60,975 nucleotides of DNA from Chitinophagales bacterium (lineage in GTDB: Bacteria; Bacteroidota; Bacteroidia; Chitinophagales; S012-47), in the NCBI GenBank assembly GCA_015487695.1, contig WFPF01000040.1, positions 1 through 60,975 of the forward strand. Direction: 5' to 3'. The position numbers and the translations under genes are program-made. The notes under the pieces are model-generated. The model saw only the letters and a program-made list of their open reading frames with translations. It made no database searches and had not been told where the DNA came from. Each line of letters starts with the position of its first letter. The first letter of the stretch is position 1. This document shows positions 22,589 to 59,102 of the stretch, one piece after another.

Positions 22589-22606
22589 GACAGATAAACT
22601 ATAGCT

Positions 22607-27654: not shown

Positions 27655-30300
27655 TTACTGCTGTTCCAAATAGTTTTTTGTGAAAAAAGACATGTACGCA
27701 TTAACGTCTTTTTCTCTGAAAAATACTCCGTAATTAAAGGGAGTAATGGAAAATACCTCATATTTTTCTTTTGGCAATGCGTCAAATATCTTCTCGTTAT
27801 ATCGAATTTCATTGTAGAAATTCTGTGCTTTTTCCGCATTCGGAAATTGCTTGACCAAAACAATCTGAGCATTGTTGTTTAGCAGCATGGAGCTGATCTT
27901 CAGATTCTCGAGACTGTGATACTCGCTGTTGTAATTGGCCAGATTGTTCTTTATCAACTGGGCCGTGTCGCCAACGGAATAAACGAGAATTGCCAGGAAA
28001 TGGGCTGAATTCGGCTCATATTTAAATAAGCTTTGGCCCCCGTCACCGCTGCTGCCGGTATGGCTGAGTCCTTCCATTGAATTGAGAATAGCAATGGCCC
28101 GGGTTTTCACCTCATCAAAAGGGTACTTATTTACAATTTGCTCCAGTTTGCTTCGCATCGTATCGTAGATGCCGAGGCTTCCGTAAGAGAGTGCTTCGAG
28201 CATGTCAAACTTCGACATCAGAGAGCTGCCTGCAAAACGGCTGCGGGCTTCGCGAACCCGGTCTAAAGTGCCTCTGTAATCGCCATTTTCGAACAACTCA
28301 AAAGTTCGGGCATAGTAAGAAACCGCTTCATTGCTTTTGTTTTCCTGCTTCCTGAGGTAGTCTGGATCTTTGATGATTTTGGCAAGTACGCTGTCGGGAT
28401 ATTCGGATAAGACGATGTTCTTGTAATAATCCGATTTGCCCTGGTCCACTCCCTGGTAGAGGAGGTAAAGCCGGTATGCTACTTCCAGTCTGTATTTGTT
28501 CTGCGGGTATTTATTAAATAGGGCTTCATAAGTCTCCCGGGCTTTCTTGATATCGTGCAATTCCTCCTTGTAGATATTTGCCAATTCATAATAAGCGTCA
28601 ATAATGCGTTCCGTTGATGCCTGCAATTCTTCCGGACTTTGAGGGATGTCTTCGAAGCCTGATTCGCTGCCGGCCGCGCTGCTTTCCGCATTGCTTTCTC
28701 CGCCCTCTTGCTGATCGCCATTGCTCAGAGGGTTGATGCCCGAGCTGCTGGTTCTGACCCGCCACATGGGAATATGGGGTCGTTCGCCCCAAATTTTCCG
28801 GAATTCGTTGTAGCCTCGTCCCTTTAAAGAGGGATTGTCAAAGGGCCAGGCAGAGCCGCTGTTTGTATTCGTTACGTTTATCAGGGGCTGCATTTCTTCC
28901 TCCGGCTCTTCTTCCAAAGCCTCTTCCATCTGTTTCGATCTTTTTTCTTTCAGCTTTTTAAGTTCTTCGGGGTTCATTTTGGCAAGTGCCTGCATGCTGT
29001 CTTCATGGGCGATGATTTGCAGTCGCTCAGTGATTTCCGCCAGAATGTTTCTTCGGGTATTCAGTGTGTCGAAAAGGCCCAGGTTCTTGTCGAGAAAGAG
29101 GAGGGTACTGTCGTGATACGCCTTTGAGGTCACATAGTCGCCCAGCGTGAAATAATAATTGGCCAATCGCAGGTAAGCGTTGCTTTTGATGCTCTCATCG
29201 CCTTCGCTGAAGCGGATGGCTTCCCTGAAATTTTCAATGGCCTTCTCTTCCATGCCATCTTTCAGGTAGATCTCTCCCAGGCTGTAGTAGATTCGCCCTT
29301 TGAAGTCTTCATATCGTTCGTCTTTGAGCATATTGTTTAGCAGGCTGATTACGTACTCGTTGCTCACTTTCCGGAGGCGGGCACTCAGGCGGGCAATTTT
29401 CAGCTTGGCATTAAATTCCATTTCGATCTCAGGATGCTCTTCCAATACTTGTTTGTAATACTGTATGGCCAGGTCGAAATTGCCGGTTTTTTCGTAGAGC
29501 TGGGCAAGAATAAATAGATAGCGTGCCCTAAGCTTCTTGTTATTACTCAGCTCGATAGCACGCTTGAGGCTTTCTCCAGCCCGGGGGTAATCTCCCTTCA
29601 GAATAAAGATGAAAGCTTCTGTGGTGAAAAGTTCTTCTTTGAGGGGTTCGGGAAATGCCTTATCGCCTTTTGCAAGGGCCAGCACACTTTGTGCATCAGC
29701 GTATTTGCCGAGGCGGGCATATGCTCGCGAAATCCAGAGCATGGCTTCGTAGCGGGCAGGCTTGTGTTTCAGAAAAGCCGAACTGCCGTCATAATAGGGA
29801 TTGTATTCGTCTTCCTTCCCCTTGCTCCGGATCTTATCCGTTTTCTTCGGTTTTTCGCGAATGCCCGTTTCTACCCGTGAGGTGACATTCACAAAAGCCT
29901 TGATGGCTTTCTCAAAATCGCCTTTCAGATAATAGGCCTCGCCAATGTGGAAGTATGCGTCATCTGTCCATTTGCTGTTTTCGTGCAGCTGTATGTTTTC
30001 CGACTCCTTTTTGATGGCAGCATCAAGCTTCGGGAAATATTCTTCCGGAGAATCAAGGGCATCTATTGGCTGAAGCGGAAGGAGCCGGTCGTAGTTGTCT
30101 TTATGCTTGTTGTTTATATCCTCCTTTATTTCCTGCAGGATGAGCTCGGCATTGAAATATCGGTTGTATCGTGCCGTTAAATCGTGATAGGCAAGCTTCA
30201 TACTGGAGTTGTCCGAAGACTTACAGGAAGCAAGAAGAATGATCAGGAGAAAGAAAAGGAAGTAGCGACCTTTATTAAAAACCATTAATTTAGAATCCAT
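27655..30300 (-). CDS. TPR-repeat lipoprotein, PorW/SprE-like (type IX secretion associated)
   Basis: Lipoprotein signal 'LLIILLASCKSS', 'MKLAYHDLTARYNRYFNAELILQE', numerous TPRs, 881 aa. Confidence 0.85.
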   Translation of the reverse strand: MDSKLMVFNKGRYFLFFLLIILLASCKSSDNSSMKLAYHDLTARYNRYFNAELILQEIKEDINNKHKDNYDRLLPLQPIDALDSPEEYFPKLDAAIKKESENIQLHENSKWTDDAYFHIGEAYYLKGDFEKAIKAFVNVTSRVETGIREKPKKTDKIRSKGKEDEYNPYYDGSSAFLKHKPARYEAMLWISRAYARLGKYADAQSVLALAKGDKAFPEPLKEELFTTEAFIFILKGDYPRAGESLKRAIELSNNKKLRARYLFILAQLYEKTGNFDLAIQYYKQVLEEHPEIEMEFNAKLKIARLSARLRKVSNEYVISLLNNMLKDERYEDFKGRIYYSLGEIYLKDGMEEKAIENFREAIRFSEGDESIKSNAYLRLANYYFTLGDYVTSKAYHDSTLLFLDKNLGLFDTLNTRRNILAEITERLQIIAHEDSMQALAKMNPEELKKLKEKRSKQMEEALEEEPEEEMQPLINVTNTNSGSAWPFDNPSLKGRGYNEFRKIWGERPHIPMWRVRTSSSGINPLSNGDQQEGGESNAESSAAGSESGFEDIPQSPEELQASTERIIDAYYELANIYKEELHDIKKARETYEALFNKYPQNKYRLEVAYRLYLLYQGVDQGKSDYYKNIVLSEYPDSVLAKIIKDPDYLRKQENKSNEAVSYYARTFELFENGDYRGTLDRVREARSRFAGSSLMSKFDMLEALSYGSLGIYDTMRSKLEQIVNKYPFDEVKTRAIAILNSMEGLSHTGSSGDGGQSLFKYEPNSAHFLAILVYSVGDTAQLIKNNLANYNSEYHSLENLKISSMLLNNNAQIVLVKQFPNAEKAQNFYNEIRYNEKIFDALPKEKYEVFSITPFNYGVFFREKDVNAYMSFFTKNYLEQQ

Positions 30301-39305: not shown

Positions 39306-42300
39306 ATGAAAAAAATTTTACTGGCTTTTTTTATCATTCTAGGTTTCATGAAAGTCGCTACAGCACAGCGTGCTGGCGAAATTCAGGGCCGCATACTCAA
39401 TGAAAAAGGCGAGGGTATTCCGTTTGCCAATGTGGTGGTTTTTAGAAACAACATACAGGTCATGGGTACGGCAACAGACTTTGAAGGATTCTTCTCTTTG
39501 AAGCCGCTTGAGCCGGGCAATTACAAATTAATTGCTTCTTACCTGGGAAAAAATGTGGAAGTGAATAATATCTCGGTAGATGCTTCAAAAACCACATTCC
39601 TCAAGGATATCATTTTATCCACAGCCCAAACCCTTGAAACGGTGACAGTCAAATATGAAGAGCCTCCCGTGGATGTAGGGAAACCGGAATCGGGTGACTC
39701 GAGGGACCGGGAGGAGATAGAGCGCATGCCGAAAAACAACCTGGCAGGTATCATCGGAAACACAGCGATGACATACCAGGGCGATGATGATGAATTAATC
39801 AGCATTGCAGGCTCCAGAGGATATGGCACCAAATATCTTATTGACGGGGTAGATCTTACGGGTTTGGTTGACCTTCCCAATGATGCCATTGACCAGATTG
39901 AAGTTATTACGGGAGGTGTAGATGCCAGTCAGGGTGACTTTACCGGAGGGGTAGTGAATATTTCAACTCGTGGCCCTTCCAATACAGTACATGGTTCGTT
40001 GGAGTATTTGACTTCAGAATACCTGGATCCTTTTGGATACAATGAAGCACGGTTCAGTTTGCTTGGACCATTGACCAAGCAGTTTGCAGGAACAGATTCG
40101 GCCCGGACAAATTTGGGATATCTATTATCGGGTAAGGTCATCTTCGAAAAGGAGTCGGATCCTCCCGGGATTCCTATTTTTTATGTCAATGACACAAAGT
40201 TAGAGGAGTTGAAGGCGAATCCTCTTGTTCCGTCAAGAACCGGAGAAGGCTTCAATAAGGCTACTGAGTTTATCCGGAAAGAGGACTTGGTGTCGTCCTA
40301 TGTCAGACGAAATAATAATGACTGGCAGGCCAACTTTTTCGGAAAGCTCGACTACAAACCAACGATGACCACGAATCTGACCTTCGGGGCAAATTACCTT
40401 CACAGTAACAATAATGCCAACATAAGGGTATATGAAATGTTTAACTCGGAGAACAACCCGAAAGTCTACTCGGATGACCTGCGTCTATATACCAAATTCA
40501 CGCAGCGATTCAGAACGACAGAGAAGGAACAGACGAGTGGTTATACAATCAGCAGTGCCTACTACACCATTCAGGTGAATTATCAATACAATCAGGACAT
40601 TGTTGAAGACCGCAATCACAGGAGAAATCCTTTTGAGTATGGCTATATAGGTAAATTCAATACATTTCGTGAGCCGGTATATTTCTATACAGAGGATTCC
40701 GTAACCGGCAAAGAGGCATTTCGACTTTTCGGATATCGTGATACGGCCGTTACTTATGAGCCGGGAACAGCCAATCCGGTTTTGGCTCGTTATACTGAGC
40801 AATATTATGATCTCTTTGATCCAAATAACTTGACAGATGTAGTTTTGGGTGGAGGCCTTCGCAACGGTGACTTCACGCAATCACTCTATTCCTATTCCAT
40901 GTGGTACAATCCGGGGGTTCCTTACACCAGATACAGCAACTCGGACAACACGCAGTTCGGAGGTCGTTTTGATGCTTCCGTTGACCTGAAGAAAAGTACG
41001 AAAGACGAAATAAATAAACACTCCATTGAATTTGGTTTTGAATACGAACAACGTGTAGAACGCAGCTATTCCGTGTCTCCTTTTGGCTTATGGGGCCTGG
41101 CCCGACAGCTTACCAACTTTCATCTGAACAACCTGGACGTTTCCAATCCCTATTATCTGGTAAACGGTGATACTGTCCACTACACCGAATATCAGGGAGA
41201 AGTGGGTGAGTTTGATTCTATCTTTTACTATCGCAGATACGACCAACAGGATCAAACCTACTTCGATATCAAGCTGAGAGAAAAACTGGGCATACCGGTA
41301 AACAGCCTTGAGTTTATCAATCTGGATAACATTGATCCGGAGCTCCTTTCTCTGAATATGTTTAGCCCCGATGAGTTGATTAATGGTGGAAACAGGGTTG
41401 TGAACACCCGGGGTTATGATTACTACGGAAACAAATTGTCACAGGCTCCTTCATTTGCCGACTTCTTTTATGACTATATGGATAACAACGGAAATGGCCG
41501 GTTTGATTTTGGTGACTACTATACCCGCAACCTCGATGCCTACAGACCGATTTATACCGGAGCTTACATTCAGGACCGTTTCAACATCGGAAGGGTGCTG
41601 TTCAGAGTAGGACTGCGGGTTGACCGTTTTGATGCCAACCAAAAGGTATTGCGCGATCAATACTCGCTCTATGCCATCCGTACGGTGGAGGAAGTGACTA
41701 CCATTAACGGAAACGCTGTCAATCATCCGTCTACCGTTGACAATACATTTGCCGTTTATGTGGATGACAGAAACAATCCGTCCAAAATATTGGGATACCG
41801 CGATGGAGACACCTGGTACAATGCGGAAGGAACACAAATTATGGATCCGGGCGTCATAGCCAACCAGACGACTACCGGTGTGATTGCACCTTATCTGGTT
41901 GATCCCACGGCCAATATCAAAGATCCTGACAATTTTGATGTAGATGCTTCTTTCCAGGATTACAATCCCCAGTTTACGGTGATGCCACGGATTGCATTCT
42001 CTTTCCCGATTACGGAAACGGCCATGTTCACGGCTCACTATGATGTGCTGACGCAAAGACCCCTGGGCAGAAACGAAGCAACTCCTTACCATTATTACTT
42101 TTTGGAAGAGATTGCTACTGACGGTGTAATTCCGAACCCGAACCTTAAGCCGGAAAAAACGATCAATTATCAATTGGGCTTCCAGCAGGCACTGAGTGAC
42201 AAGTCCGCTTTGAAGATTTCTGCCTACTACCGTGAGATGCGTGATATGATGCAGGTTACAAGGATTCTCTACGCATACCCGACCGATTACACGACTTATG

Positions 42301-43031
42301 GGAATGTGGATTTTGGAACCGTGAAGGGCTTGAACATTAAATATGATCTGATCCGAAGAGTAAATAATATACGCTTCACAGGGGCCTATACGCTCCAGTT
42401 TGCCTCAGGTACCGGATCGAACACTACTTCTCAGCTGGGACTGATCAATGCCGGTCAACCAAACCTGCGTGCCATTGTTCCACTGAACAATGACGTTCGA
42501 CACCAGTTCCTGCTTGATCTGGATTATCGCTTTGCTTCCGGAAGAGATTACACGGGCCCACGTGTCAACGGAAAACCCATCTTCGAGAATGCCGGATTGT
42601 TGCTACAGATGAGAGCCCGTACGGGTGAACCGTATACCCGCCAGTCGAATCCGACTCCTACGGCTATGTTTGGCGTAGCTTCCCGCTCTACCTTGCTGGG
42701 CTCTATCAATGGCTCTAGGTTGCCTTTCAACTTTAAGATTGACCTTGCCATGGACAAAGACATCGCCATCAGCGGAGGCAAAAAACCCATGTTTGTCAAT
42801 GTATATCTGAAAGTTCAGAATCTCCTCAATTCCAGAATTGTAAGGGGTGTGTACCGCTATACGGGAAGCCCGACAGATGATGGCTATATCAGTTCACCTT
42901 TTGCTCAGGAATTAATAAGAGGTCAGGTTGATCAACAGGCATTCATTGATCAGTACACAATCAAAATGAGGAATCCGGGCAATTTTGCATTGCCAAGGCG
43001 GGTCCAACTCGGTGTTAAACTCAAGTTTTAA
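39306..43031 (+). CDS. TonB-dependent receptor with carboxypeptidase-regulatory-like N-terminal domain
   Basis: 1241 aa; signal peptide; 'AGEIQGRILNEKGEGIPFANVVVFRNN'; plug 'SIAGSRGYGTKYLIDGVDLTGLVDLPNDAIDQIEVITGGVDASQGDFTGGVVNISTRG'; C-terminal barrel ending 'RRVQLGVKLKF'. Confidence 0.93.
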   Translation: MKKILLAFFIILGFMKVATAQRAGEIQGRILNEKGEGIPFANVVVFRNNIQVMGTATDFEGFFSLKPLEPGNYKLIASYLGKNVEVNNISVDASKTTFLKDIILSTAQTLETVTVKYEEPPVDVGKPESGDSRDREEIERMPKNNLAGIIGNTAMTYQGDDDELISIAGSRGYGTKYLIDGVDLTGLVDLPNDAIDQIEVITGGVDASQGDFTGGVVNISTRGPSNTVHGSLEYLTSEYLDPFGYNEARFSLLGPLTKQFAGTDSARTNLGYLLSGKVIFEKESDPPGIPIFYVNDTKLEELKANPLVPSRTGEGFNKATEFIRKEDLVSSYVRRNNNDWQANFFGKLDYKPTMTTNLTFGANYLHSNNNANIRVYEMFNSENNPKVYSDDLRLYTKFTQRFRTTEKEQTSGYTISSAYYTIQVNYQYNQDIVEDRNHRRNPFEYGYIGKFNTFREPVYFYTEDSVTGKEAFRLFGYRDTAVTYEPGTANPVLARYTEQYYDLFDPNNLTDVVLGGGLRNGDFTQSLYSYSMWYNPGVPYTRYSNSDNTQFGGRFDASVDLKKSTKDEINKHSIEFGFEYEQRVERSYSVSPFGLWGLARQLTNFHLNNLDVSNPYYLVNGDTVHYTEYQGEVGEFDSIFYYRRYDQQDQTYFDIKLREKLGIPVNSLEFINLDNIDPELLSLNMFSPDELINGGNRVVNTRGYDYYGNKLSQAPSFADFFYDYMDNNGNGRFDFGDYYTRNLDAYRPIYTGAYIQDRFNIGRVLFRVGLRVDRFDANQKVLRDQYSLYAIRTVEEVTTINGNAVNHPSTVDNTFAVYVDDRNNPSKILGYRDGDTWYNAEGTQIMDPGVIANQTTTGVIAPYLVDPTANIKDPDNFDVDASFQDYNPQFTVMPRIAFSFPITETAMFTAHYDVLTQRPLGRNEATPYHYYFLEEIATDGVIPNPNLKPEKTINYQLGFQQALSDKSALKISAYYREMRDMMQVTRILYAYPTDYTTYGNVDFGTVKGLNIKYDLIRRVNNIRFTGAYTLQFASGTGSNTTSQLGLINAGQPNLRAIVPLNNDVRHQFLLDLDYRFASGRDYTGPRVNGKPIFENAGLLLQMRARTGEPYTRQSNPTPTAMFGVASRSTLLGSINGSRLPFNFKIDLAMDKDIAISGGKKPMFVNVYLKVQNLLNSRIVRGVYRYTGSPTDDGYISSPFAQELIRGQVDQQAFIDQYTIKMRNPGNFALPRRVQLGVKLKF

Positions 43032-43050
43032 ATAGAATAGAATATATAAA

Positions 43051-46000
43051 ATGATTCAAATGATAAAGCAATCGTTAAAAGTTATTGCTCTTTCCGGCAT
43101 TTTCTTCTCCTTCCAGTTTTTGGGTGCTACTGAGAATATTGGCCAGCTTACAAGCAATGAAAAACAAACCAGGTCTTTCAAGATGGCGGAAGCTTGTACA
43201 CCGGCCACTTCGCAAACAGACCTGGAGATCAACAACGTACGGACACGCCTTCTTGCCGGAGGTGATCTTTGGTGGGATTTGGCCAATGCCAAATATGAAG
43301 TGCCGAAGGTGGAGCCGGGCTCAGGTCAGGTATCAAAACACTCCCTCTTTGCAGGTGCCCTGTGGATCGGTGGAATTGATGCCGGGGGACAATTGAAAAT
43401 TGCCGCTCAGACCTACAGGCAGTCGGGAAATGATTTCTGGACCGGCCCGCTCGATGCACAGGGTTCTGTCAATGATGAGGTTTGTTCAAAATTTGACAAG
43501 CACTGGCAGGTTTACCGGGGTGAAATCAATGACGTGATCAAGAAATTCGAGGATAAAGGGAGTATCAGCATTTCAGATGTTCCCAAAAATATCAGGGAAT
43601 GGCCCGGAAGAGGGAATCCTTTTGCCATCGGAGCCAACAATATTCCGCTCAACCTGGATGTAAATAAATCGCTGGCACCTTTTATCGATCGAAACGGAGA
43701 CGGAATCTACAATCCGGAAGACGGAGATTATCCGGATGTAAAAGGAGATCAGGCCATTTGGTGGGTTTACAATGACAAAGGAAATATTCACACCGAGACG
43801 GGAGGGGAAGCCATTGGCCTGGAGATTAAAGCCCTCGCTTTTGCTTTTAAGACCAGCGATGAGATCAATGACATGACCTTCTACCAGTACGATGTTTCCA
43901 ACTTCTCGACCATTGTACTCGATAGTGTATTCTTCGGCCAATGGGTAGATCCCGATTTAGGGAACTTTCAGGATGACTTTGTGGGCTGTGATACTACAAG
44001 GGGCCTGGGCATCTGCTACAACGGTGATGCCGTGGATGAGGGGGCACAGGGATATGGAGAGAACCCGCCACTGATTGGTGTGGACTTTTTCCAAGGTCCC
44101 CTTAAATATAAATATGATAACACAGGATCAATTGTAGATTCGGTCAGACTGGGGATGTCCAAGTTTCTTTATTACAACAATGACTTCTCGACCATCGGAA
44201 ACCCGGAAGTGGCCTCTCACTACTATGGTTATTTGTCAGGAACCTGGAAAGACGGAAGCCCCTTCACTTTTGGTGGCAATGGCTACAATACCGGAGTTCC
44301 CTTTGACTTCATGTTCCCAAGCGATCCGGCCGACAATTCACCGGATGCATGGAGCGAATGTTCGGAAGGCAATACCCCTGCCGACAGGCGTTTCCTGCAG
44401 TCAGCCGGTCCATTCCGCCTTGAGCCGGGAGCCAAAAACCAGGTGGTAGTTGGTGTCGTATGGGTGCGTCCCCCCAATCAGTCCGGTTGCCGAGCTGATT
44501 TTGATGCCTTGCGTCTTGCGGATGATAAGGCGCAGGCACTCTATGACAATAATTTTGTTGTAATTGGAGGACCGAGTGCCCCAGATCTTGCCATAAGGGA
44601 GTTGGATAAGGAAATTGTTATAAGTATGGAAAACTATTTAAATGAAGATGTTGAACTATATGAAAAGGCAGACCCGGTCATAAAATCAATTATTGAAGGA
44701 CTTGGTGATCCGTTGATTACGGATTCTACGTATAATTTTGAAGGATACATTGTTTACCAATTGCGCAATAATCAGGTTACGCCACGTGAATTTGTGGATG
44801 CAAGTAAAGCAAGGGCTATATTTCAGGTAGATATAGAAAATGGTATCAGCAAAATTATAAATTACAAAGAGGACTTTGTTGTAGGCGCATTGGTGCCTCA
44901 ATTAATGGTGAATGGAAATGACAAAGGCATCAGCCACACATTGAATGTGACCGAGGATGCTTTTGCAACAGGGTCAAAGGAATTGGTTAATCATAAGCGC
45001 TACTATTTCTCAATAGTTGCTTATGCTTATAATAATTACATACCCTATGAGCCGGGCAATCCACAAAGCCAGTTAGAGCCATTTCTTCTGGGAGCTGAAA
45101 ATATAAAAGTATACTCTGCCATACCCCATAAAACTGCACCGGAGGCGGGTGGTACTATTCTTAATTCCTCCTATGGTGATGAGCCTGAAATCAAAAGACT
45201 GGAAGGAATGGGCAATGGCTACCGCGTGCTTGAACTTACCAAGGCTACGATGGATGAGATACTTACCAATGCATCGGCCCCTTATCCTGAGTATCAGTCC
45301 GGCTTCGGACCGGTAGACATTAAGATATACGATCCGATGAAGGTGCCCAATGCAGACTTTGAACTTCAGCTAGTTGATATCTATCCGCGATTGGGCAACA
45401 AAAAGATACTGGATGAGCGATCCACGTGGATATTAATTAACAAGGAATTAAATGACACCATCTATTCAGAACGAACAATTGCGATTAAGAACGAGCAGAT
45501 AATTCCTGAATATGGGTTCTCCATTACAATTAAGCAAACCGCCAATCCGGGACAGAGCTCTGCAATTAATAATGGTTTCCTTGAGGCCTCCATGGAATTT
45601 GAAAACACCAAGATAAAGTGGTTAAGTGGGATATCCGATGGAGAAGGCAAAATTGGAGCCAGTGGATTCTTTAACTGGATTCGCTCCGGAACATCCATAG
45701 ATGCAAATAATCCTTCTCCTTACGATGACTATGATCAGCCTGGGAAGTTAGATGAAGAAGAAATATATGAAAATGTCTTAGATGGTACATGGGCTCCTGC
45801 AGCCCTCACGGGAGGCTTTAATCAGGATCCTATGGATAATCCCTTTGCTCCGGGGCGAAAGGCCATTGGCCTTTTCAGTATGTTGCGCCTCGACAGCCTT
45901 GCAAGTGTCGATGTAGTCTTTACTCCGGACAAATCGAAATGGACCCGTTGTGTGGTCGTGGAAACCCAACCCGATCCGGCCCTGGCCGAGGGAGGTGCTA

Positions 46001-46926
46001 TCAAACTGGGTCTTCGTCAGCATGCCTCCCTCAATCTGGACGGAACTTATTCGACTACGGAAATCGGAAGATCCTGGTTCCCGGGATATGCGGTCAATCT
46101 GGAAACCGGAAAACGGCTTAATATCATTTTCGGTGAGGATTCATGGCTTACGGCCGAGAATGGCAATGATATGATTTGGAATCCAACTTCAAGGACAAGC
46201 ATCCCAACCGGACCCAGAGGATTTACCTACATGTTCGGAGGTAAGCATTACCTCTACATCAGCAATACGGAATATGACGAAGGAGATCAATTCTACAATG
46301 ATTATACCACTAGTATTAATGAACTCTTTGCCATTCAGAATGTCTTTGCAAAAACACTTTGGGTGAGCATTCCGATGCTGCAAAACGGCTTTGAACTGAA
46401 ATCATTCGATGAAGGACTGATTCCGACCGAAACCCGGGTACGCCTGAGAGTTGGACGGGCCTACACGGATTACAATCCGGACGGAGATCCTGAAGTTCAG
46501 CCAAGATATTTCTTCTCGACCAAAGGATGGGCTCCCGAAACGGGGAATCTAGCAGTTGCGGACACAGCTTTGGATGATATTCGAGTGGTTCCGAACCCTT
46601 ATTATGCTTATTCAGAATATGAAGCTAGCCAGGCGGACCGCAGGGTGAAAATCACCAACCTGCCGCCTCAATGTACCATTACTATTTACTCTACAGACGG
46701 TGTGTTGATTCGCAGATTTGTCAGGGATAACCCAGCAGATGCAACTCAGGGTGCGCTATTTGAGGAGGAAAACTTTGATACTACCCTTGATTGGGACTTA
46801 CGTAATGATAAGAATATTCCGATTGCCAGTGGCATCTACATCATTCATATCAGCGCCCCCGGAGTAGGTGAAAAAACCGTAAAATGGTTTGGTGTGATGC
46901 GACCCCTTGATTTTGACAATTTCTAA
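43051..46926 (+). CDS. Large secreted protein with a FlgD-like/T9SS-like C-terminal Ig module
   Basis: 1291 aa; signal peptide; 'DRNGDGIYNPEDGDYPDV'; C-terminus 'DIRVVPNPYYAYSEYEASQADRRVKITNLPPQCTITIYSTDGVLIRRF...LDWDLRNDKNIPIASGIYIIHISAPGVGEKTVKWFGVMRPLDFDNF'. Confidence 0.75.
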   Translation: MIQMIKQSLKVIALSGIFFSFQFLGATENIGQLTSNEKQTRSFKMAEACTPATSQTDLEINNVRTRLLAGGDLWWDLANAKYEVPKVEPGSGQVSKHSLFAGALWIGGIDAGGQLKIAAQTYRQSGNDFWTGPLDAQGSVNDEVCSKFDKHWQVYRGEINDVIKKFEDKGSISISDVPKNIREWPGRGNPFAIGANNIPLNLDVNKSLAPFIDRNGDGIYNPEDGDYPDVKGDQAIWWVYNDKGNIHTETGGEAIGLEIKALAFAFKTSDEINDMTFYQYDVSNFSTIVLDSVFFGQWVDPDLGNFQDDFVGCDTTRGLGICYNGDAVDEGAQGYGENPPLIGVDFFQGPLKYKYDNTGSIVDSVRLGMSKFLYYNNDFSTIGNPEVASHYYGYLSGTWKDGSPFTFGGNGYNTGVPFDFMFPSDPADNSPDAWSECSEGNTPADRRFLQSAGPFRLEPGAKNQVVVGVVWVRPPNQSGCRADFDALRLADDKAQALYDNNFVVIGGPSAPDLAIRELDKEIVISMENYLNEDVELYEKADPVIKSIIEGLGDPLITDSTYNFEGYIVYQLRNNQVTPREFVDASKARAIFQVDIENGISKIINYKEDFVVGALVPQLMVNGNDKGISHTLNVTEDAFATGSKELVNHKRYYFSIVAYAYNNYIPYEPGNPQSQLEPFLLGAENIKVYSAIPHKTAPEAGGTILNSSYGDEPEIKRLEGMGNGYRVLELTKATMDEILTNASAPYPEYQSGFGPVDIKIYDPMKVPNADFELQLVDIYPRLGNKKILDERSTWILINKELNDTIYSERTIAIKNEQIIPEYGFSITIKQTANPGQSSAINNGFLEASMEFENTKIKWLSGISDGEGKIGASGFFNWIRSGTSIDANNPSPYDDYDQPGKLDEEEIYENVLDGTWAPAALTGGFNQDPMDNPFAPGRKAIGLFSMLRLDSLASVDVVFTPDKSKWTRCVVVETQPDPALAEGGAIKLGLRQHASLNLDGTYSTTEIGRSWFPGYAVNLETGKRLNIIFGEDSWLTAENGNDMIWNPTSRTSIPTGPRGFTYMFGGKHYLYISNTEYDEGDQFYNDYTTSINELFAIQNVFAKTLWVSIPMLQNGFELKSFDEGLIPTETRVRLRVGRAYTDYNPDGDPEVQPRYFFSTKGWAPETGNLAVADTALDDIRVVPNPYYAYSEYEASQADRRVKITNLPPQCTITIYSTDGVLIRRFVRDNPADATQGALFEEENFDTTLDWDLRNDKNIPIASGIYIIHISAPGVGEKTVKWFGVMRPLDFDNF

Positions 46927-46945
46927 TGAGAGCAACAATATAACC

Positions 46946-48022
46946 ATGAGAAAATATTTTATGAAAAGGATTATTCTGAGCTTCTTGTGTCTTGTGACAG
47001 TTTCAATGACCGCCTTTGCAGGAAACCCTGACAGGGCGGGTCAGGCTGGGGCTTCGGAATTATTGATCAATCCCTGGGCACGAAGTCTGGGCCTGAACGG
47101 AATTAATCTGGCCTCGGTAAAAGGCATTGAAGCCATGCGCCTCAATGTGGGGGGGCTCGTATTTCTGGATAAAAGCCAGGCCTATGTTTCGCACACGCAA
47201 TATCTGGTGGGAAGTGAAATTACCATCAATGCAATGGGCTTTGCTCAGAAAGTGGGGGACGGTGCTTTTGGTATTACGGTGATGAGCCTTGGATTTGGAG
47301 ATATTCCGGTTACAACAAACGCACTTCCTGATGGAGGCCTTGGCACCTTTTCGCCCCAGTTCATAAATATTGGACTGGCTTATTCCCGTTCATTTGCGGA
47401 TTTTATACATGGGGGATTCGTGCTCAGAATAATAAATGAGTCAATTGCTAATGTTTCAGCCAGTGGGGTTGCTATTGATGCAGGCCTGGTCTATACCACG
47501 GGAAATGATGATTACCCTGAGAAGTTTAAATTCGGAGTTTCGCTAAGAAACGTAGGCACACCCATGACCTTCAGAGGTGATGGTCTCCAATTTAAGACTG
47601 ATGTGATAACAGGATTGTACAAACAAAATGCACAGCAGATATCGCAGGCATTTGAATTGCCTTCGCAGCTGAATATCGGTGTATCCTATGATATACATCT
47701 TGCTGATAAGCACCGCCTGACGGCCAGTGCAAGCTTCAACTCAAATGCATTTTACCGAGATCAGTTCGGTATTGGTGTGGAATATGGCCTCAGCCTCAAC
47801 GGCAGAGAGATATTTATGCTACGCGGAGGCTATAAATATGAAGCCGGGCTGACGGATACACGCTTGCGCAGAAATGCACATACGGGATTTGCCGGTGGTT
47901 TTACAGTGGACATCCCCTTCAGCAAGGATGAGAGCCTGCCACGCATGGGCATTGACTATGCATTCCGCTCTTCAGATCCGTTCAGCGGAAGCCACAGCGT
48001 GGGCGTGCACCTCGATTTCTAA
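46946..48022 (+). CDS. PorV/PorQ family outer membrane protein
   Basis: 'GNPDRAGQAGASELLINPWARSLGLNGINLASVKGIEAMRLNVGGLVF', FadL/PorV-like barrel, C-term 'GSHSVGVHLDF'; start refined to MRKYFMKRIIL. Confidence 0.85.
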   Translation: MRKYFMKRIILSFLCLVTVSMTAFAGNPDRAGQAGASELLINPWARSLGLNGINLASVKGIEAMRLNVGGLVFLDKSQAYVSHTQYLVGSEITINAMGFAQKVGDGAFGITVMSLGFGDIPVTTNALPDGGLGTFSPQFINIGLAYSRSFADFIHGGFVLRIINESIANVSASGVAIDAGLVYTTGNDDYPEKFKFGVSLRNVGTPMTFRGDGLQFKTDVITGLYKQNAQQISQAFELPSQLNIGVSYDIHLADKHRLTASASFNSNAFYRDQFGIGVEYGLSLNGREIFMLRGGYKYEAGLTDTRLRRNAHTGFAGGFTVDIPFSKDESLPRMGIDYAFRSSDPFSGSHSVGVHLDF

Positions 48023-48109
48023 AAAGTAACTTAACTTTGCAATAAAATGAGACGTTTCTACCAAGGTGGGAGCGTTTCTTTTTTAATGCTAACGGATAAA
48101 GACTGTACC

Positions 48110-48586
48110 ATGAGCCAGAAAAAATATTTCACCCAGGAAGGATATGATAAGCTGAAGAAGGAACTCGAGTACCTGACAACGCGCGAACGGGCCAAAATTG
48201 CCAACCAGATAGCGGAAGCCAGGGAGAAAGGGGACCTTTCGGAAAATGCAGAATATGATGCTGCTAAAGAAGCCCAGGGACTGCTGGAACTGAGAATCAA
48301 CAAGATGCAGGAGGTGCTTGCCAATGCGCGGGTGCTGGATGAAAAATCGATTGATACCTCCAAAGTGCAGGTGCTCACAACGGTGCGTGTGATGAACAGG
48401 AAATTGAAAAAGGAGCAAAAATTCACGCTGGTAACGGAAACGGAAGCAGACTTTAAAAAAGGAAAAATATCTACCGGTTCGCCCATTGGCAACGGACTGC
48501 TCGGAAAGAAAGTGGGAGATGTGATCAATATTCCCATTCCGAATGGAAGCATTGAATTTGAGATCCTTGAAATTACCGTGGAATAA
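48110..48586 (+). CDS. greA: Transcription elongation factor GreA
   Basis: 'YFTQEGYDKLKKELEYLTTRERAKIANQIAEAREKGDLSENAEYDAAKEAQG'. Confidence 0.96.
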   Translation: MSQKKYFTQEGYDKLKKELEYLTTRERAKIANQIAEAREKGDLSENAEYDAAKEAQGLLELRINKMQEVLANARVLDEKSIDTSKVQVLTTVRVMNRKLKKEQKFTLVTETEADFKKGKISTGSPIGNGLLGKKVGDVINIPIPNGSIEFEILEITVE

Positions 48587-48597
48587 ATTCTAGTCTT

Positions 48598-48993
48598 ATG
48601 GCCAGCATATTCACCCGGATCATAGAAGGAGAGATACCCTCCTACAAAATTGCGGAAAGCGATTGCTGCTATGCTTTTCTGGACATCAATCCCCTGACAA
48701 AGGGACACACCCTGGTCGTTCCAAAGCAGGAGATTGATTATCTTTTTGACCTTGACAATGAGCTTTATGCGGAATTGATGCTTTTTGCCAGGAAAATTGC
48801 ACCGGCCATCGAAAAAACCGTTCCTTGTGAGCGAATAGGCATGGCCGTTCTGGGCCTTGAGGTGCCCCATGCACACATTCATCTGATTCCCATCCGATCT
48901 ATTGCCGATCTTGATTTTTCCAAACCCAAGCTGAAACTTAGCGAATCGGAGTTTAATTCTCTGGCCGCCCGGATTCGTGCCAATCTGGATTAA
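48598..48993 (+). CDS. HIT family hydrolase
   Basis: 'IFTRIIEGEIPSYKIAESDCCYAFLDINPLTKGHTLVVPK', 'HAHIHLIPI'. Confidence 0.95.
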   Translation: MASIFTRIIEGEIPSYKIAESDCCYAFLDINPLTKGHTLVVPKQEIDYLFDLDNELYAELMLFARKIAPAIEKTVPCERIGMAVLGLEVPHAHIHLIPIRSIADLDFSKPKLKLSESEFNSLAARIRANLD

Positions 48994-51407: not shown

Positions 51408-52361
51408 ATGCCGTTTTCCAGGGAAATTGAAGAGAAAATTGAATTGCTCAAAGAGAAATATGCCGCTTCGGGGCAGGATATGTTGTCCTATCTCGAAGGT
51501 CTGATTTACCAGGACTTTCTGAATTACTGGGATTATATCAATCTGGACGTATTGCTGAACATCCAGCAACCCCGTACTCCTTTCCCTGACGAAACGGTTT
51601 TTATAGTCTATCATCAGATAACGGAACTGTACTTTAAGCTCACGCTCCATGCCATGAAGCAGATTACCGATGTGGAGCACCCTTCTCCGGAAAACTTCAA
51701 GAAGCAGTTGAGACGCATGAACGACTACTTTAAGAATCTGATTCGTTCTTATGAGATCATGGTGGATGGCATGGACAAAGAGCAGTTTTTAAAATTTCGC
51801 ATGGCCCTGCTTCCTGCCAGCGGCTTTCAGTCGGCACAGTATCGATTTATTGAGATTTTGTCTACCGATGCCGGGAATCTGCTCACGCAGCAATTGCGCG
51901 ATCAACTCGGGGACGAAGAGAACCTTCGCATCTTATACGAAAATTTCTATTGGAAACAAGGTGGAAAGGAGTTACGATCGGGTAATAAAACGTTGACCCT
52001 CCGTCAGTTTGAGAAAAAATATACGGATGACTTTATCAAGGCCCTCTACCGCTATGAGCACGACAACCTGTGGCAGAAGTTTAAGAAACTGCCCGAAGAA
52101 GCCAAAGACGAGGAATTGATCAGGCATATGAAGGATTTTGACCTTAATGTGGAAGTTCGCTGGCCCCTGATGCATTACCGTTCGGCTGTGCGCTATCTGC
52201 ACAAGAAGCCGGAAGATATTGAAGCAACCGGAGGAACCAACTGGCAGGAATATCTGCCACCGCACTTTCAGAAGACTTATCTCTTCCCGGAGCTCTTCAG
52301 CGAAAAGGAAAAAGAAAGCTGGGGGAAGAGCCGCATTACGCGCCCTGCGAAGCCTCATTGA
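51408..52361 (+). CDS. kynA: Tryptophan 2,3-dioxygenase
   Basis: 'LNYWDYINLDVLLNIQQPRTPFPDETVFIVYHQITELYFKLTLHAMKQI', 'ALLPASGFQSAQYRFIEI', 'GGTNWQEYLPPHFQKTYLFPELF'. Confidence 0.92.
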   Translation: MPFSREIEEKIELLKEKYAASGQDMLSYLEGLIYQDFLNYWDYINLDVLLNIQQPRTPFPDETVFIVYHQITELYFKLTLHAMKQITDVEHPSPENFKKQLRRMNDYFKNLIRSYEIMVDGMDKEQFLKFRMALLPASGFQSAQYRFIEILSTDAGNLLTQQLRDQLGDEENLRILYENFYWKQGGKELRSGNKTLTLRQFEKKYTDDFIKALYRYEHDNLWQKFKKLPEEAKDEELIRHMKDFDLNVEVRWPLMHYRSAVRYLHKKPEDIEATGGTNWQEYLPPHFQKTYLFPELFSEKEKESWGKSRITRPAKPH

Positions 52362-52773
52362 TATAGGCAATGCACTTTAGCTCGATGGCTATTGGTGTGG
52401 GCAGGGACCCGACCTCCACCGTGGTGCGGCAGGGCTGATTATCGGAGAAATATTCTCCGTATATGCGGTTGAATGTCTGAAAATCCCGTTTCATATTGAC
52501 CAGAAATACCGTGATATCTACCAGGTCATCCCATTGGGCACCGGAGGCTTCGAGTACCGCACGTACATTTCTGAATACTGAATGTACCTGTGCCTCAAAA
52601 TCAAATTCCAGAAAATTCCCGTAGGCATCCACTTTCAGGCCGGGGATTCCTTTCCCGTCTTTCAGGCGGGGCCCGATACCCGATAAAAACAACAGGGGAC
52701 CTACTCTGCGTGCATGCGGGTAGCTTCCTACTGCTCCGGGTGCTTCCGGGGTGCTAATCTTCTCTTTTTTCAT
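52336..52773 (-). CDS. RidA family protein (candidate 2-aminomuconate deaminase)
   Basis: Start refined to MKKEKISTPEAPGAVGSYPHARRVGPLLFLSGIGPR; 'NQPCRTTVEVGSLPTPIAIELKCIAY'; context with aminomuconate pathway genes. Confidence 0.85.
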   Translation of the reverse strand: MKKEKISTPEAPGAVGSYPHARRVGPLLFLSGIGPRLKDGKGIPGLKVDAYGNFLEFDFEAQVHSVFRNVRAVLEASGAQWDDLVDITVFLVNMKRDFQTFNRIYGEYFSDNQPCRTTVEVGSLPTPIAIELKCIAYINEASQGA

Positions 52774-53791
52774 CTTTTTCCAAATTATGTTGTTGGTTGG
52801 CCATGACCATTTCAAGATTCCATTCAATTTTTCGAACAAATTTATGAGCCCTCACAGGGCAATCCTTTATCAGGCAATGCGGGCATGAATCGTCCGTACA
52901 AGGGTCTACATGAATGAAAAATTCAACCCGTTTGCCTACGTTCCGGTTGATCAGGCGATCTATTTCTTCAATCTCGTCATGGGCTTTTCGCACATCATAA
53001 TACCAGGGCAGCGTTACGTGGCAATCGATATGGAGTTGGTGCCCGTATTTTATCACACGCATGTTGTGAATATCGATCCACTCTTCCTGCCGGTGTGCAT
53101 TTAATATTCCGATGATCTTTTCAAGGACCTTTATATCGGCTTCATCCATAATGCCACTGAGCGAAGTGCGCAGTATTCTGATTCCCGTAACAATGATAAT
53201 CAAACCGAAAAGGATGGCAATAAGACTGTCGAGCCAAATGAATCCGGTGAGAATAATGAGTCCCAGGCCGACAATCAACCCAAGGGTGGAGTAGGCATCC
53301 GACTTCAGATGTTCACCGCTGGCTGTCAGGGCGGCCGAATCGTTTTTCCTTCCCGTTCGGGCGGCATAGTAGCCCATGAGATAATTGATCACTCCACCGG
53401 CAATGACAATGTAAAGTCCGATATCGAGGCTATGCAGTTCGACCGGATAAACAAGGTTGTAAATTGATTTTACGATGATGATTCCACCTGCAATAAAAAT
53501 CATCGCTCCTTCGACAGCTGCAGAGATAAACTCTGCTTTTCCATGTCCGTAGGGGTGGTTGCTGTCGCTGGGTTTGGCAGAGAGAATGAGGCTGTAAAGT
53601 CCCAGCGCACCGGCCACAACATTGACAATGCTTTCGACCGCATCGGTAAGAACGGCATTGGAGTGGGTGATAAAATAGGCAATAAACTTGGCCAGGAGTA
53701 CCAGCAAGCCGATGCCCAGAATAAAACTCTGTACCCGTACATTCAGGCGGGCTTCTTTTTCTCCCGGCCGGTATGTGCCTTGAGACATCAT
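52754..53791 (-). CDS. Cation diffusion facilitator (CDF) family transporter
   Basis: 'KFIAYFITHSNAVLTDAVESIVNVVAGALGLYSLILSAKPSDSNHPYGHGKAEFISAAVEG'; C-terminal cytoplasmic domain 'HQLHIDCHVTLPWY'. Confidence 0.94.
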   Translation of the reverse strand: MMSQGTYRPGEKEARLNVRVQSFILGIGLLVLLAKFIAYFITHSNAVLTDAVESIVNVVAGALGLYSLILSAKPSDSNHPYGHGKAEFISAAVEGAMIFIAGGIIIVKSIYNLVYPVELHSLDIGLYIVIAGGVINYLMGYYAARTGRKNDSAALTASGEHLKSDAYSTLGLIVGLGLIILTGFIWLDSLIAILFGLIIIVTGIRILRTSLSGIMDEADIKVLEKIIGILNAHRQEEWIDIHNMRVIKYGHQLHIDCHVTLPWYYDVRKAHDEIEEIDRLINRNVGKRVEFFIHVDPCTDDSCPHCLIKDCPVRAHKFVRKIEWNLEMVMANQQHNLEKDEKRED

Positions 53792-55242
53792 CGGTATTTG
53801 ATGCAGACATTTTTGGGCTCAGTAAAGAAACGCAGCACTTCCCATCCGCCTTCGCGTCCCATGCCCGAGTTTTTCATGCCGCCAAACGGAGTGCGAAGAT
53901 CGCGCAACATCCAGCAATTGATCCAGACGATTCCCGTCTCGATTGATTCTGCCAGGCGATGGGCACGGCTGAGGTTCTCCGTCCAGATGGATGAAGCAAG
54001 GCCATATTCGCTGGCATTGGCTTTGCGCAGGGCATCCTCTTCGTCCGTAAAGGGGGCAATGCTGACTACCGGACCAAATATTTCTTCCTGATTGGTGCGG
54101 CAGTGTTCGTCAAGTCCTTCGATGATAGTGGGCTCCACAAAGTAGCCATTGCTGCATCGCTTGTTCACTTCGGGGATGCCGCCTCCAAGTAAAATGCGTC
54201 CCCCCTCATCTTTGGCCAGTTCGATGTAGGAAAGAATCTTTTCCTGATGATCTTTCGAAACCACCGCCCCTACCTGGGTATCCGGTGACTGGGGGTCGCC
54301 CACGCGCAATAGGCTTGCCTTTTCGAGAAAAGCAAGCTTGAAGCGTTCGTAGATACTTTCTTCGACCAGAATGCGCGATCCGCAGAGGCAGATTTGTCCC
54401 TGATTTGAAAAAGAAGAACGAAGCACGGTCTGTATCATGCGCTCAAAATCGCAATCGGCAAATATGACGGTGGGATTTTTACCACCCAGTTCGAGCGACA
54501 TTTTTTTGAAAAGGGGAGCAGCAAGAGAGGCTATTTTTTTGCCCGTCTCGGTGCCTCCCGTAAAACTGATGGCTTTGATATCATCCGATAGCACCATGGC
54601 TTCGCCTACTTTGCGGCCCAGTCCGTGCAGAATGTTCAGCACGCCCGGGGGCAACCCGGCTTCGATGCAAATCTTGGAGAGCAGATATGCCGTCATGGGG
54701 GTTACTTCGGATGGCTTGGCCACCACGGTATTGCCAATGGCGAGAGCCGGGGCGATTTTCCAGGTAAAAAGGTAGAGCGGAAGGTTCCAGGGAGAGATGC
54801 AAGCCACGGCTCCCAAGGGTCTGCGCAGGGTGTAGTTGATGGCACCGCTGGTCATATGATGCGATTCGGAAGAAAAGTGTTTGATGGCCGAAGCGAAAAA
54901 GCGAAAATTTTCGACCGCCCGGGGTATGTCAACGGTTCGCGCCAGGTTGACCGGTTTCCCGTTGTCTTCCGACTCGGCCACAGCCATAAGGTCCAGGTTC
55001 TGATAAATAAGATCCGCAATTCTGTTGAGCAGGCCCCAGCGAAAAGCAATCGGCTGGCGGGACCATTCGGAGAAGGCATTTTTAGCAGCGGCCACAGCCA
55101 GTTCCACATCCCGCTCATCCGAATTGGGGATGTAGGAATAGACTTCTCCCGTAGCCGGGTTGATATTGTCCAGATACTCATTGGGTACCGGATCTACAAG
55201 CTCTCCGTTGATGTAATTCTTGATGTATTTATCCGTCTTCAT
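53788..55242 (-). CDS. Aldehyde dehydrogenase (candidate 2-aminomuconic 6-semialdehyde dehydrogenase)
   Basis: Start refined to MKTDKYIKNYING; 'LELGGKNPTVIFADCDFERM', 'SNQGQICLCGSRILVEE', 'NQEEIFGPVVSIAPF'; context. Confidence 0.88.
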   Translation of the reverse strand: MKTDKYIKNYINGELVDPVPNEYLDNINPATGEVYSYIPNSDERDVELAVAAAKNAFSEWSRQPIAFRWGLLNRIADLIYQNLDLMAVAESEDNGKPVNLARTVDIPRAVENFRFFASAIKHFSSESHHMTSGAINYTLRRPLGAVACISPWNLPLYLFTWKIAPALAIGNTVVAKPSEVTPMTAYLLSKICIEAGLPPGVLNILHGLGRKVGEAMVLSDDIKAISFTGGTETGKKIASLAAPLFKKMSLELGGKNPTVIFADCDFERMIQTVLRSSFSNQGQICLCGSRILVEESIYERFKLAFLEKASLLRVGDPQSPDTQVGAVVSKDHQEKILSYIELAKDEGGRILLGGGIPEVNKRCSNGYFVEPTIIEGLDEHCRTNQEEIFGPVVSIAPFTDEEDALRKANASEYGLASSIWTENLSRAHRLAESIETGIVWINCWMLRDLRTPFGGMKNSGMGREGGWEVLRFFTEPKNVCIKYR

Positions 55243-55252
55243 AAGCCAGAAT

Positions 55253-56044
55253 TTATAGGCTGCCCGTGCGGCCTCCATCTACCGGTAAATTGATTCCCGT
55301 AATATATGAAGCGGCCGGACTGGCCAGAAATGCAATGGCATTGGCTATCTCTCCGGCAGAGGCAAAGCGTTTCATGGGTATAATCGATTTCATCGCTTCA
55401 CTGACTTCCTCTGTGCTTTTTCCACCGGCCTTCGCTTTGGATTGAATGATGCTTTCCAGCCTGCCGGTCAGTGTGGCACCAGGCAGTACATTGTTTACCG
55501 TAATGCGATCAGCGGCCAGCTCATTGGCCATGGTTTTCGACCAGTTGGCTACAGCTCCGCGAATGGTATTCGATACTCCGAGACCCCGCAAAGGTATTTT
55601 TACCGATGTGGATATAACGTTGATGATGCGGCCATATCCGGCCAGCCGCATGCCGGGGATAAGCGCCCTGCTCAGCAGTTGAGCCGTGATGAGATGCATC
55701 TCAAAGGCCCTTCGGAACTCATCGGCAGCGGCTTCGGTGATCGGGCCACCCGGAGGGCCTCCCGTATTGTTGATGAGTATTTGATAGCTGATGCCATTTT
55801 GCAGCATATGATGTTGCACCTTCTCTGCCGCGCTTTCGGCTTCCGCAAAATCTGCCGCAATGAAGTCATGTGCCTGTCCATTGCCTTTTGGAAGTTCATC
55901 CAGACATTGTTTTAGTTTTTCTTCATTTCGGGCCAGCAGTGTAACACGGGCTCCGAGGCTTGCCAGTTCTATGGCGGACGCTTTCCCAATGCCTCCCGTA
56001 GCGCCTCCTACAAGGGCATGTTTATTCGACAAATCCAGATTCAT
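55253..56044 (-). CDS. SDR-fold protein with non-canonical active site
   Basis: Start refined to MNLDLSNKHALVGGATGGIGKASA; 'LINNTGGPPGGP'; 'SNTIRGAVANWSKTMANELA' where YxxxK is expected; 'ITVNNVLPGATLT'; 'GINLPVDGGRTGSL'. Confidence 0.88.
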   Translation of the reverse strand: MNLDLSNKHALVGGATGGIGKASAIELASLGARVTLLARNEEKLKQCLDELPKGNGQAHDFIAADFAEAESAAEKVQHHMLQNGISYQILINNTGGPPGGPITEAAADEFRRAFEMHLITAQLLSRALIPGMRLAGYGRIINVISTSVKIPLRGLGVSNTIRGAVANWSKTMANELAADRITVNNVLPGATLTGRLESIIQSKAKAGGKSTEEVSEAMKSIIPMKRFASAGEIANAIAFLASPAASYITGINLPVDGGRTGSL

Positions 56045-56220
56045 GACAATAAAGATAAGGCAAAGCCTCATTGATAAAAATCTGACAACCCTGCCCGGCA
56101 GGTATGAAAGGTAGATTAAAAGAGAGGATGAAGGGCATTTGCAGAAGATGAAAATAATTCTTTCTGCAAGCTATATTTCAAAAAATGCTAACTTTCTATC
56201 CGTAATCAAACTGCTTGATC

Positions 56221-56751
56221 ATGTCTGTAATGAAACCCTTTAACCTGAATCAATGGCTCGAAGCAAACCGGGACAAACTAAAGCCACCGGTGGGCAACAA
56301 AAATCTCTATCCCGAAGGCGAGGATTATATCGTAATGGTGGTGGCCGGGCCCAATGCGCGCAAAGACTACCACTACAATGAAACCGAGGAATTATTTTAT
56401 CAACTGGAGGGAAATATCACAGTCAGAATCCAGGAAAACGGCCAGGCGGTAGATATGAAACTGGGACCCGGAGACATGTTTCTTCTCCCGGCCAGGGTGC
56501 CGCATTCCCCCATGCGCGAAGAAGGCTCTATCGGACTGGTCATTGAAAGAGTAAGAAAAGACAGCGATTTCAAGGATGGCCTGCAGTGGTACTGCGAGCA
56601 GTGCAACAACAAGCTGCACGAAGTATATTTCAAACTTGTCGATATTGAAAAGGACTTTCTCCCCAGGTTCAGAGAATTTTACGGTTCGGAATCTTTGCGA
56701 ACCTGCAGTTCCTGCGGTCATGTGATGGAAAGTGATCCCCGCTTCGTATAA
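56221..56751 (+). CDS. nbaC: 3-hydroxyanthranilate 3,4-dioxygenase
   Basis: Cupin; 'MVVAGPNARKDYHYNETEELFYQLEGNITVRIQENG', 'PARVPHSPMREEGSIGLVIER', C-terminal rubredoxin-like 'WYCEQCNNKLHEVYF...RTCSSCGHVM'. Confidence 0.93.
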   Translation: MSVMKPFNLNQWLEANRDKLKPPVGNKNLYPEGEDYIVMVVAGPNARKDYHYNETEELFYQLEGNITVRIQENGQAVDMKLGPGDMFLLPARVPHSPMREEGSIGLVIERVRKDSDFKDGLQWYCEQCNNKLHEVYFKLVDIEKDFLPRFREFYGSESLRTCSSCGHVMESDPRFV

Positions 56752-56771
56752 GTAAAATCAACGAAAGATAT

Positions 56772-57785
56772 ATGCCTCTTAAGATTGATATCCATACCCA
56801 TATTATGCCCGCACATGTGCCCCGCTGGGCAGGGCAATTCGGCTACAACGGATTTGTGCACCTCGAGCACAAGGGCCCCGGTTGTGCGCACATGATGAAG
56901 GGCGATGAATTTTTCAGAGAAGTTCAGGCCAATACCTGGGACAGCATGGCACGGTTGTCCGATTGCGATGTCCACCATGTGGATGTGCAGGTATTGTCGA
57001 CAATACCCGTTTTGTTTAGTTACTGGGCGAAGCCGCAGCATGCCTATGATGTAGCGCGTTTTCTGAATGACCACATTGCCGACACGGTGGCAGAGCATCC
57101 CAGACGCTTTGTCGGCCTGGCCACCCTTCCTATGCAGTCTGTCGATCTTTCGCTGCAAGAGCTGGAAAGAAGCATAAAGGAACTGGGATTGGCAGGAATT
57201 GAAATCGGGTCACATATCAACCACCAAAACCTGAATGATCCTGCATTTTATCCCCTTTGGCAGCTTGCCGAAGAACTTGGTGCTGCCGTATTTGTGCATC
57301 CCTGGGATATGATGGGGATGAAAGACATGCCAGACTATTGGTTGCCCTGGCTGGTGGGTATGCCGGCCGAAACCTCGAGGGCCATCTGCTCCATGATATT
57401 CGGGGGTGTATTCGAGAAGTTTCCCAATTTGCGTGTGGCCTTTGCGCATGGTGGCGGGGCCTTTCCGGCAAGCATCGGACGCATCGAGCATGGATTTAAC
57501 GTACGGCCCGACCTTTGTGCCGTTGACAACAAGGTGAAACCGAGTGCCTATCTCGGCCGTTTTTGGCTCGACTCACTGGTACACGATCGCAAGATGCTGG
57601 ACTACATTATCGGCCTGGTGGGGGCCGAAAAGGTTGCCCTCGGTACGGATTATCCCTTTCCGCTGGGCGAACTCGAGCCGGGGAAACTCATTGAAGAAGG
57701 CAACTATGATCCTGAAGTGCGCGACTATCTGCTTCACCGCTCGGCACTGGAATGGCTGGACATGAATAAAGATCAATTTTTATGA
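56772..57785 (+). CDS. Amidohydrolase family, 2-amino-3-carboxymuconate-6-semialdehyde decarboxylase (ACMSD)
   Basis: 'IDIHTHIMPAHVPRW', 'VFVHPWDMMG', 'RVAFAHGGGAFP', 'ALGTDYPFPLGE'; position in kynurenine operon. Confidence 0.92.
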   Translation: MPLKIDIHTHIMPAHVPRWAGQFGYNGFVHLEHKGPGCAHMMKGDEFFREVQANTWDSMARLSDCDVHHVDVQVLSTIPVLFSYWAKPQHAYDVARFLNDHIADTVAEHPRRFVGLATLPMQSVDLSLQELERSIKELGLAGIEIGSHINHQNLNDPAFYPLWQLAEELGAAVFVHPWDMMGMKDMPDYWLPWLVGMPAETSRAICSMIFGGVFEKFPNLRVAFAHGGGAFPASIGRIEHGFNVRPDLCAVDNKVKPSAYLGRFWLDSLVHDRKMLDYIIGLVGAEKVALGTDYPFPLGELEPGKLIEEGNYDPEVRDYLLHRSALEWLDMNKDQFL

Positions 57786-57815
57786 AATTTGTTGCTCAGC
57801 CATTAAACCCGGAAT

Positions 57816-59093: not shown

Positions 59094-59102
59094 TTGAAGA
59101 AA

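Follow-up and report, generated by a model that had tools for sequence, protein, structure and literature searches.

A conserved, co-inherited three-gene unit coding for a TonB-dependent receptor, a giant exported protein and a PorV-type barrel in Bacteroidota with a type IX secretion system

The three-gene locus and its conservation

The window analyzed here, a stretch of 60,975 nucleotides from a Chitinophagales bacterium, contains three genes coding for a TonB-dependent receptor (TBDR), a giant exported protein and an outer-membrane barrel, whose features are collected in Table 1. The initial annotation had described three consecutive genes on the same strand with short gaps, and the open reading frames were indeed found at those places on the plus strand, in one direction and separated by around 19 nt. 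The start then assigned to the barrel, 46907, is likely too early. The reading frame opening with that TTG spans positions 46907-48022 of the plus strand, but the true start is probably the ATG at 46946, because homologues begin there, with the mature end AGNPDRxGQAGA, and because the gap to the giant gene then becomes 19 nt, equal to that between the TBDR and giant genes. The receptor had also been called giant: its 1241 residues make it large for a TBDR, although its size falls short of extreme.

Table 1. Features of the three-gene unit and of its downstream flank, with positions in the window.
Feature	Position	Strand	Basis or remark
TonB-dependent receptor (TBDR) gene, 1241 aa; signal peptide, CarboxypepD_reg, plug and barrel	39306..43031	+	ORF and domain matches
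Giant exported protein gene, 1291 aa; Sec signal peptide, mostly beta, without Pfam family	43051..46926	+	
Giant N-terminal module, residues ~45-510; common to 534-805-aa paralogs with type A signal	43183..44580	+	
Giant C-terminal T9SS-type Ig/FlgD-like domain, residues ~1170-1283, including invariant Lys1278 (46882-46884)	46558..46899	+	
Giant C-terminal tail RPLDFDNF, ~8 residues past the last CTD strand	46900..46923	+	
Putatively dedicated PorV/PorQ-family outer-membrane barrel gene, 358 aa	46946..48022	+	start probable
Intrinsic-terminator-like hairpin, 13 pairs and T run, at the end of the three-gene unit	48049..48078	+	
greA, conserved downstream neighbour; synteny anchor, outside the function	48110..48586	+	adjoins 77/100 triplets
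HIT-family gene, conserved second neighbour; synteny anchor	48598..48993	+	adjoins 73/100 triplets

A profile search with the giant protein yielded hundreds of relatives, and the best 80 homologous loci were examined first. The TBDR-giant-barrel arrangement, with the same order and strand, was present in 70 of them (some loci being cut by contig ends) and also in 18 loci belonging to other classes within the phylum, in which the identity of the giant was ~22-33%, so that the conservation survey called for in the initial annotation gave a positive outcome. Of the 129 loci looked at in all, the triplet was present in at least 100, with gaps mostly of 5-60 nt, and 12 of those without it corresponded to short paralogs of the N-terminal half of the giant. 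Given this recurrence in order, the arrangement cannot be attributed to chance. Within the class of the window, greA came next after 77 of 82 triplets and the HIT gene after 73, these loci bearing the labels Chitinophagales, Saprospiraceae, Flavobacteriales and Bacteroidales; outside this class the genes next to the triplet are different. Since greA-HIT follows almost everywhere within the class, the triplet is an old unit passed on vertically and no passing cassette.

The giant is usually present in single copy in the class of the window, and at eight loci it had no adjoining partners. Six of these eight genomes carry a full or contig-split triplet elsewhere, the lone giant there being therefore a second paralog, and the idea that an orphan giant means no partnership was rejected on this account. 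Lone paralogs with the same tail could share the barrel in trans, by analogy with Flavobacterium johnsoniae, where one shuttle serves three orphan type B cargoes (PMC12618676). One of the lone-giant loci (L195) holds a TBDR and a second giant at the contig end, and one genome (G496) encodes a tailed giant with neither partner, perhaps because the genome is incomplete. Two loci have, close to the triplet, an additional TBDR belonging to the same family (L189:13433-17131 and L084:310-4014). Further downstream in the window, positions 52336-60443 hold a probable kynurenine-pathway cluster, with genes for 3-hydroxyanthranilate dioxygenase, a metal-hydrolase (ACMSD-like, by eye), kynureninase and a kynurenine-monooxygenase-like flavoprotein, as well as a semialdehyde dehydrogenase on the other strand.

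Co-occurrence of the three genes and link to type IX secretion

The distribution of the three genes was evaluated in 248 genomes drawn evenly from the phylum. With a profile threshold of E <= 1e-70 the barrel was present in 68 genomes, all of which contained the giant and 67 the TBDR, and no genome in this sample had the barrel without the giant. Of the 77 genomes with a TBDR orthologue, 73 also had the giant. The p-values for co-occurrence of the trio (~1e-50) ignore kinship and overstate independence, and the pattern spans many families. SprA was present in 191 of the 248 genomes, and the giant in 127 of these versus none of the 57 SprA-negative ones, the outcome anticipated when co-occurrence with the type IX secretion system (T9SS) was proposed as a check. 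In a second, order-level sample of 198 genomes, 186 had SprA and 85 the giant family; among those at least 90% complete, the giant was found in 69 of 158 genomes with SprA and in none of nine without it. The SprA-negative positives in the order sample came from just two genomes, 74% and 82% complete, of which one gave a weak match and the other had short paralogs only, and full-length giants occurred only alongside SprA. The giant is absent from about a third of the sampled genomes with a T9SS. These data show that the three genes constitute one conserved, co-inherited and T9SS-restricted unit.

The genome from which the window comes encodes a full SprA, together with PorU-PorV, PorQ and PorU2-PorV2, and the triplet barrel is therefore an extra, specialised copy. 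The initial annotation had pointed to gldKLMN and a PorW/SprE-like gene in the region, which were located at 18776-23428 and 27655-30300, respectively, at 9-20 kb from the triplet. This closeness was dropped as evidence, the conserved neighbours of the triplet being greA and HIT. A PorP/SprF-family gene lies immediately upstream of gldKLMN (17621-23428 for the whole group). The module had also been presented as self-contained, which these results do not support: it encodes neither translocon nor motor and is present only where SprA occurs, and so it appears to depend on the general T9SS. Of the earlier interpretation as a whole, the dedicated barrel and the conserved, T9SS-linked triplet are supported, while the self-contained character is not.

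Features of the barrel, the giant protein and the receptor

Assignment of the third protein to the PorV/PorQ family, as annotated, agrees with its match to NF033709 (E 3.6e-39; 135.3 bits, over the curated cut-off of 90 bits). Scores for PorV (NF033710) and PorQ (NF033711) were 52.4 and 54.3 bits, under the equivalog cut-offs of 250 and 220 bits, respectively, the real PorQ of the same genome giving 336.9 bits with NF033711; no match to the PorV2 equivalog NF052325 was reported, and the score for the PorP/SprF family was 23.8 bits, under its cut-off of 90.55 bits. The maximum-likelihood tree placed PorV, PorV2 and PorQ in one clade each and 46 triplet barrels in another, separate from them (100/99). 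An AF2 model of the barrel built with 74 sequences (pLDDT 92) had as best Foldseek matches PorV of the SprA translocon, with bound RemA CTD (8gl6_F, E 1.8e-14) and in 6h3i_F (E 1.2e-11), with FadL relatives ranking after PorV, so that the modelled barrel has the PorV fold. Searches of the PDB with single sequences gave nothing useful for either barrel or giant, although profile searches did give matches. In two families (L185, L186, L187) the barrel carries one or two OmpA domains fused to its C-terminus, which argues for a fixed anchor over a recycling shuttle; in Porphyromonas gingivalis the link of PorP and type B cargo to peptidoglycan is provided by PorE, a separate OmpA-type protein (PMC9143113). 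Exclusive co-occurrence, a clade of its own and the private tail of the giant described below all favour the proposal, already made in the initial annotation, that this barrel may be dedicated to the neighbouring giant.

Other members of the family were noticed along the way. Two triplets with the same order and giants lacking the RPxDLDxF tail (L166, L167) have barrels outside the supported clade, with weak placement, and might represent a sister system. The genome of the window also has a further PorV/PorQ-family barrel (G000:C103, L144:8504-10782) outside the PorV, PorV2, PorQ and triplet clades, adjoining an NHL-repeat protein that is probably a lipoprotein, possibly another dedicated pair; a similar barrel is present in G500 (L213). 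The PorV2 gene of the same genome (G000:C93:5605-6687, L188; 513 bits with NF052325) is directly upstream of that for a 1676-aa PorU2-type C25 peptidase (NF052324), which gives the genome, in addition to PorU-PorV on contig C37, a second pair of sortase and shuttle.

No Pfam family was found in the giant, for which only a weak FlgD_ig match in 4 of 24 members was obtained. Its AF2 model (residues 100-1291, mean pLDDT 87) had the CTD of PorZ (5m11) as best Foldseek match, followed by a GH94/GH116-like beta-supersandwich with similar E but TM below 0.2, a likeness kept as a hint and not taken as function. The N-terminal half (residues ~45-510) recurs in proteins of 534-805 aa with an ordinary type A signal at the end (TIGR04183 over cut-off in 2/2 and PF18962 in 1/1 tested) and no TBDR or barrel adjoining; because these short paralogs carry such signals, the N-terminal module is predicted to be T9SS cargo in its own right, and the remaining long C-terminal half, which has a CTD of its own, accompanies the triplet. 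The short paralogs (L168-L179) are found two or more in tandem at L170, L174 and L176.

The Ig/FlgD-like C-terminus noted in the initial annotation corresponds to the last ~120 residues, which match the CTD of PorZ. All of 13 diverse giant CTDs match PorZ and TIGR04183, the latter with 17.9 bits and E 0.0022 for the giant of the window (cut-off 23 bits) and with E values from 1.5e-7 up to 1 over the 13 homologous domains. When the PorZ equivalog was compared with the whole giant, the CTD alone matched, with 23.8-27.9 bits for a cut-off of 260 bits. The giant CTD also aligns with those of PorU and PorU2 from the same genome, and Lys1278, invariant in the 13 domains, aligns with the last-strand Lys that in RemZ contacts PorV (PMC10994853). 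A ~700-aa CTD protein on contig C18 of this genome was considered as PorZ and rejected, since no model supports it. The giant CTD can be classed as PorZ/PorU-like (uncleaved-type), and because PorU and PorZ keep theirs (PMC11285876, PMC5562754), this suggests that the giant probably retains it. After the last strand comes a tail with the consensus RPxDL[DN]x[FY], whose final residue is F or Y in 99 of 113 giants. The coded pattern gave 21 matches in 25 genomes, every match of known position falling at a giant, with none in a reversed control and none in three sampled genomes of a family without the giant, and we take the tail to be private to this protein. It should be compatible with export, because C-terminal extensions do not block the T9SS in P. 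gingivalis (PMC11285876).

The TBDR has CarboxypepD_reg (E 3e-12), plug (2e-6) and TonB barrel (2.5e-6) domains and, after the N-terminal domain, a TonB-box-like stretch, ETVTVKY, read by eye. It gave no match to SusC models, and SusD is neither in the unit nor conserved beside the triplet. Solved TBDR structures match it only in part. Partial distance correlations over 64 triplets, calculated given greA, HIT and the third protein, were modest: 0.42 for TBDR-giant and 0.45 for giant-barrel, exceeding the 0.18 for TBDR-barrel, which places the giant as the hub between the other two. That the TBDR may act as an outer-membrane partner of the giant, as had been proposed, is supported by gene linkage only, and it might anchor, import or do both.

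Proposed function and relation to known systems

The explanation that best fits these results, to which we assign a probability of around 0.6, is that the giant leaves the cell through the T9SS and is then taken over and retained by its dedicated barrel, with the TBDR completing the surface complex as third member. Sec would carry out the first step in export of the giant and the SprA translocon the second, the latter by means of the C-terminal Ig-like domain of the giant, with the triplet barrel, a PorV paralog, replacing PorV as shuttle for this protein alone and recognising its CTD and tail. The barrel would stay bound to it as an outer-membrane anchor, the CTD being left uncleaved as in PorU:PorV and PorZ:PorQ, and the giant at the surface would form a three-part complex with the co-encoded TBDR and the barrel. 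Its likeliest role, although the weakest step of the proposal, may be that of an extracellular component for capture or gating in TonB-driven uptake. Somewhat more speculative, at slightly less than even odds, is that the triplet represents an unnamed branch of the T9SS dating from early in the phylum, in which barrel and giant are matched by a private tail code and permanently joined to a TBDR, so that T9SS export meets TonB transport, and which was lost in several well-sampled lineages.

Other explanations have to be weighed. TBDRs and FadL-fold barrels are transport proteins, the FadL family ranks next after PorV in Foldseek and part of the giant resembles the GH94/GH116 beta-supersandwich, all of which would fit a nutrient-uptake operon unrelated to the T9SS, with a FadL-like barrel for small molecules and a periplasmic or surface binding protein. 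Such an operon seems rather improbable to us, given that the best structural and profile matches are to PorV rather than FadL, that the unit is strictly limited to SprA-positive genomes, that the giant bears a PorZ/PorU-type CTD and that its short paralogs have true T9SS signals. Similarly low is the probability that the giant is ordinary cargo of canonical PorV and the barrel a mere duplicate placed there by operonic accident. PorV is said to handle every type A CTD (PMC12618676), and the giant CTD retains the PorV-contacting Lys, but the barrel clade is old and separate, in 248 genomes it never appears without the giant, gene order is maintained across classes next to differing neighbours, and the tail is private to the giant.

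It is also conceivable, if unlikely, that the module is itself a T9SS component akin to the attachment complex, in which PorZ delivers A-LPS: giant and barrel would process or anchor other surface molecules, and the TBDR would be the energised part and no nutrient receptor. The CTD type, nearer to components (PorZ, PorU) than to cargo, the sugar-related beta-supersandwich likeness, and an ancient gene set, usually single copy in the class of the window and adjoining housekeeping genes, would agree with this. However, around a third of the sampled T9SS-positive genomes are without the module, and the T9SS itself thus runs without it. We favour the surface complex of giant, dedicated barrel and TBDR. 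If this holds, it would provide a dedicated PorV-type shuttle or anchor with its own cargo tail, against the view of PorV serving all type A signals (PMC12618676), and would show how T9SS cargo and a TonB-dependent receptor can be combined in one stable complex. The triplet also offers direct tests of what determines CTD fate: cleaved, released or kept.

The triplet is widespread and ancient, and none of its parts has a named model beyond general family level in the libraries used; a description of the trio was not found in those libraries or in the open papers searched. Several known systems share some of its traits. In SusCD a TBDR is likewise encoded adjacent to a large partner protein; the triplet differs in having no SusD, a non-lipidated partner with a T9SS-type CTD and a second barrel. 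In PorU2-PorV2 (NF052324, NF052325), also encoded in the same genome, another PorV paralog likewise has a CTD partner dedicated to it, but PorV2 falls in another clade and its partner is a C25 peptidase. In the type B systems SprB:SprF and PG1035:PorP:PorE, the shuttle gene is also directly 3' of the cargo, with one shuttle per cargo (PMC12618676, PMC9143113), and peptidoglycan anchoring is of OmpA type, through PorE there and through fusion to the triplet barrel in two families; the triplet is distinguished by a barrel of the PorV/PorQ family, a PorZ/type A-like CTD and the TBDR partner. PorU:PorV and PorZ:PorQ of the attachment complex likewise pair a PorV-family barrel with a surface-held protein that keeps its CTD (PMC5562754), as proposed for the triplet, whose giant CTD is nearest to PorZ/PorU and whose barrel is predicted to fold like PorV. 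In contrast to them, the triplet barrel belongs to a separate clade, the giant resembles PorZ and PorU in the CTD alone, and a conserved tail and a TBDR gene are added.
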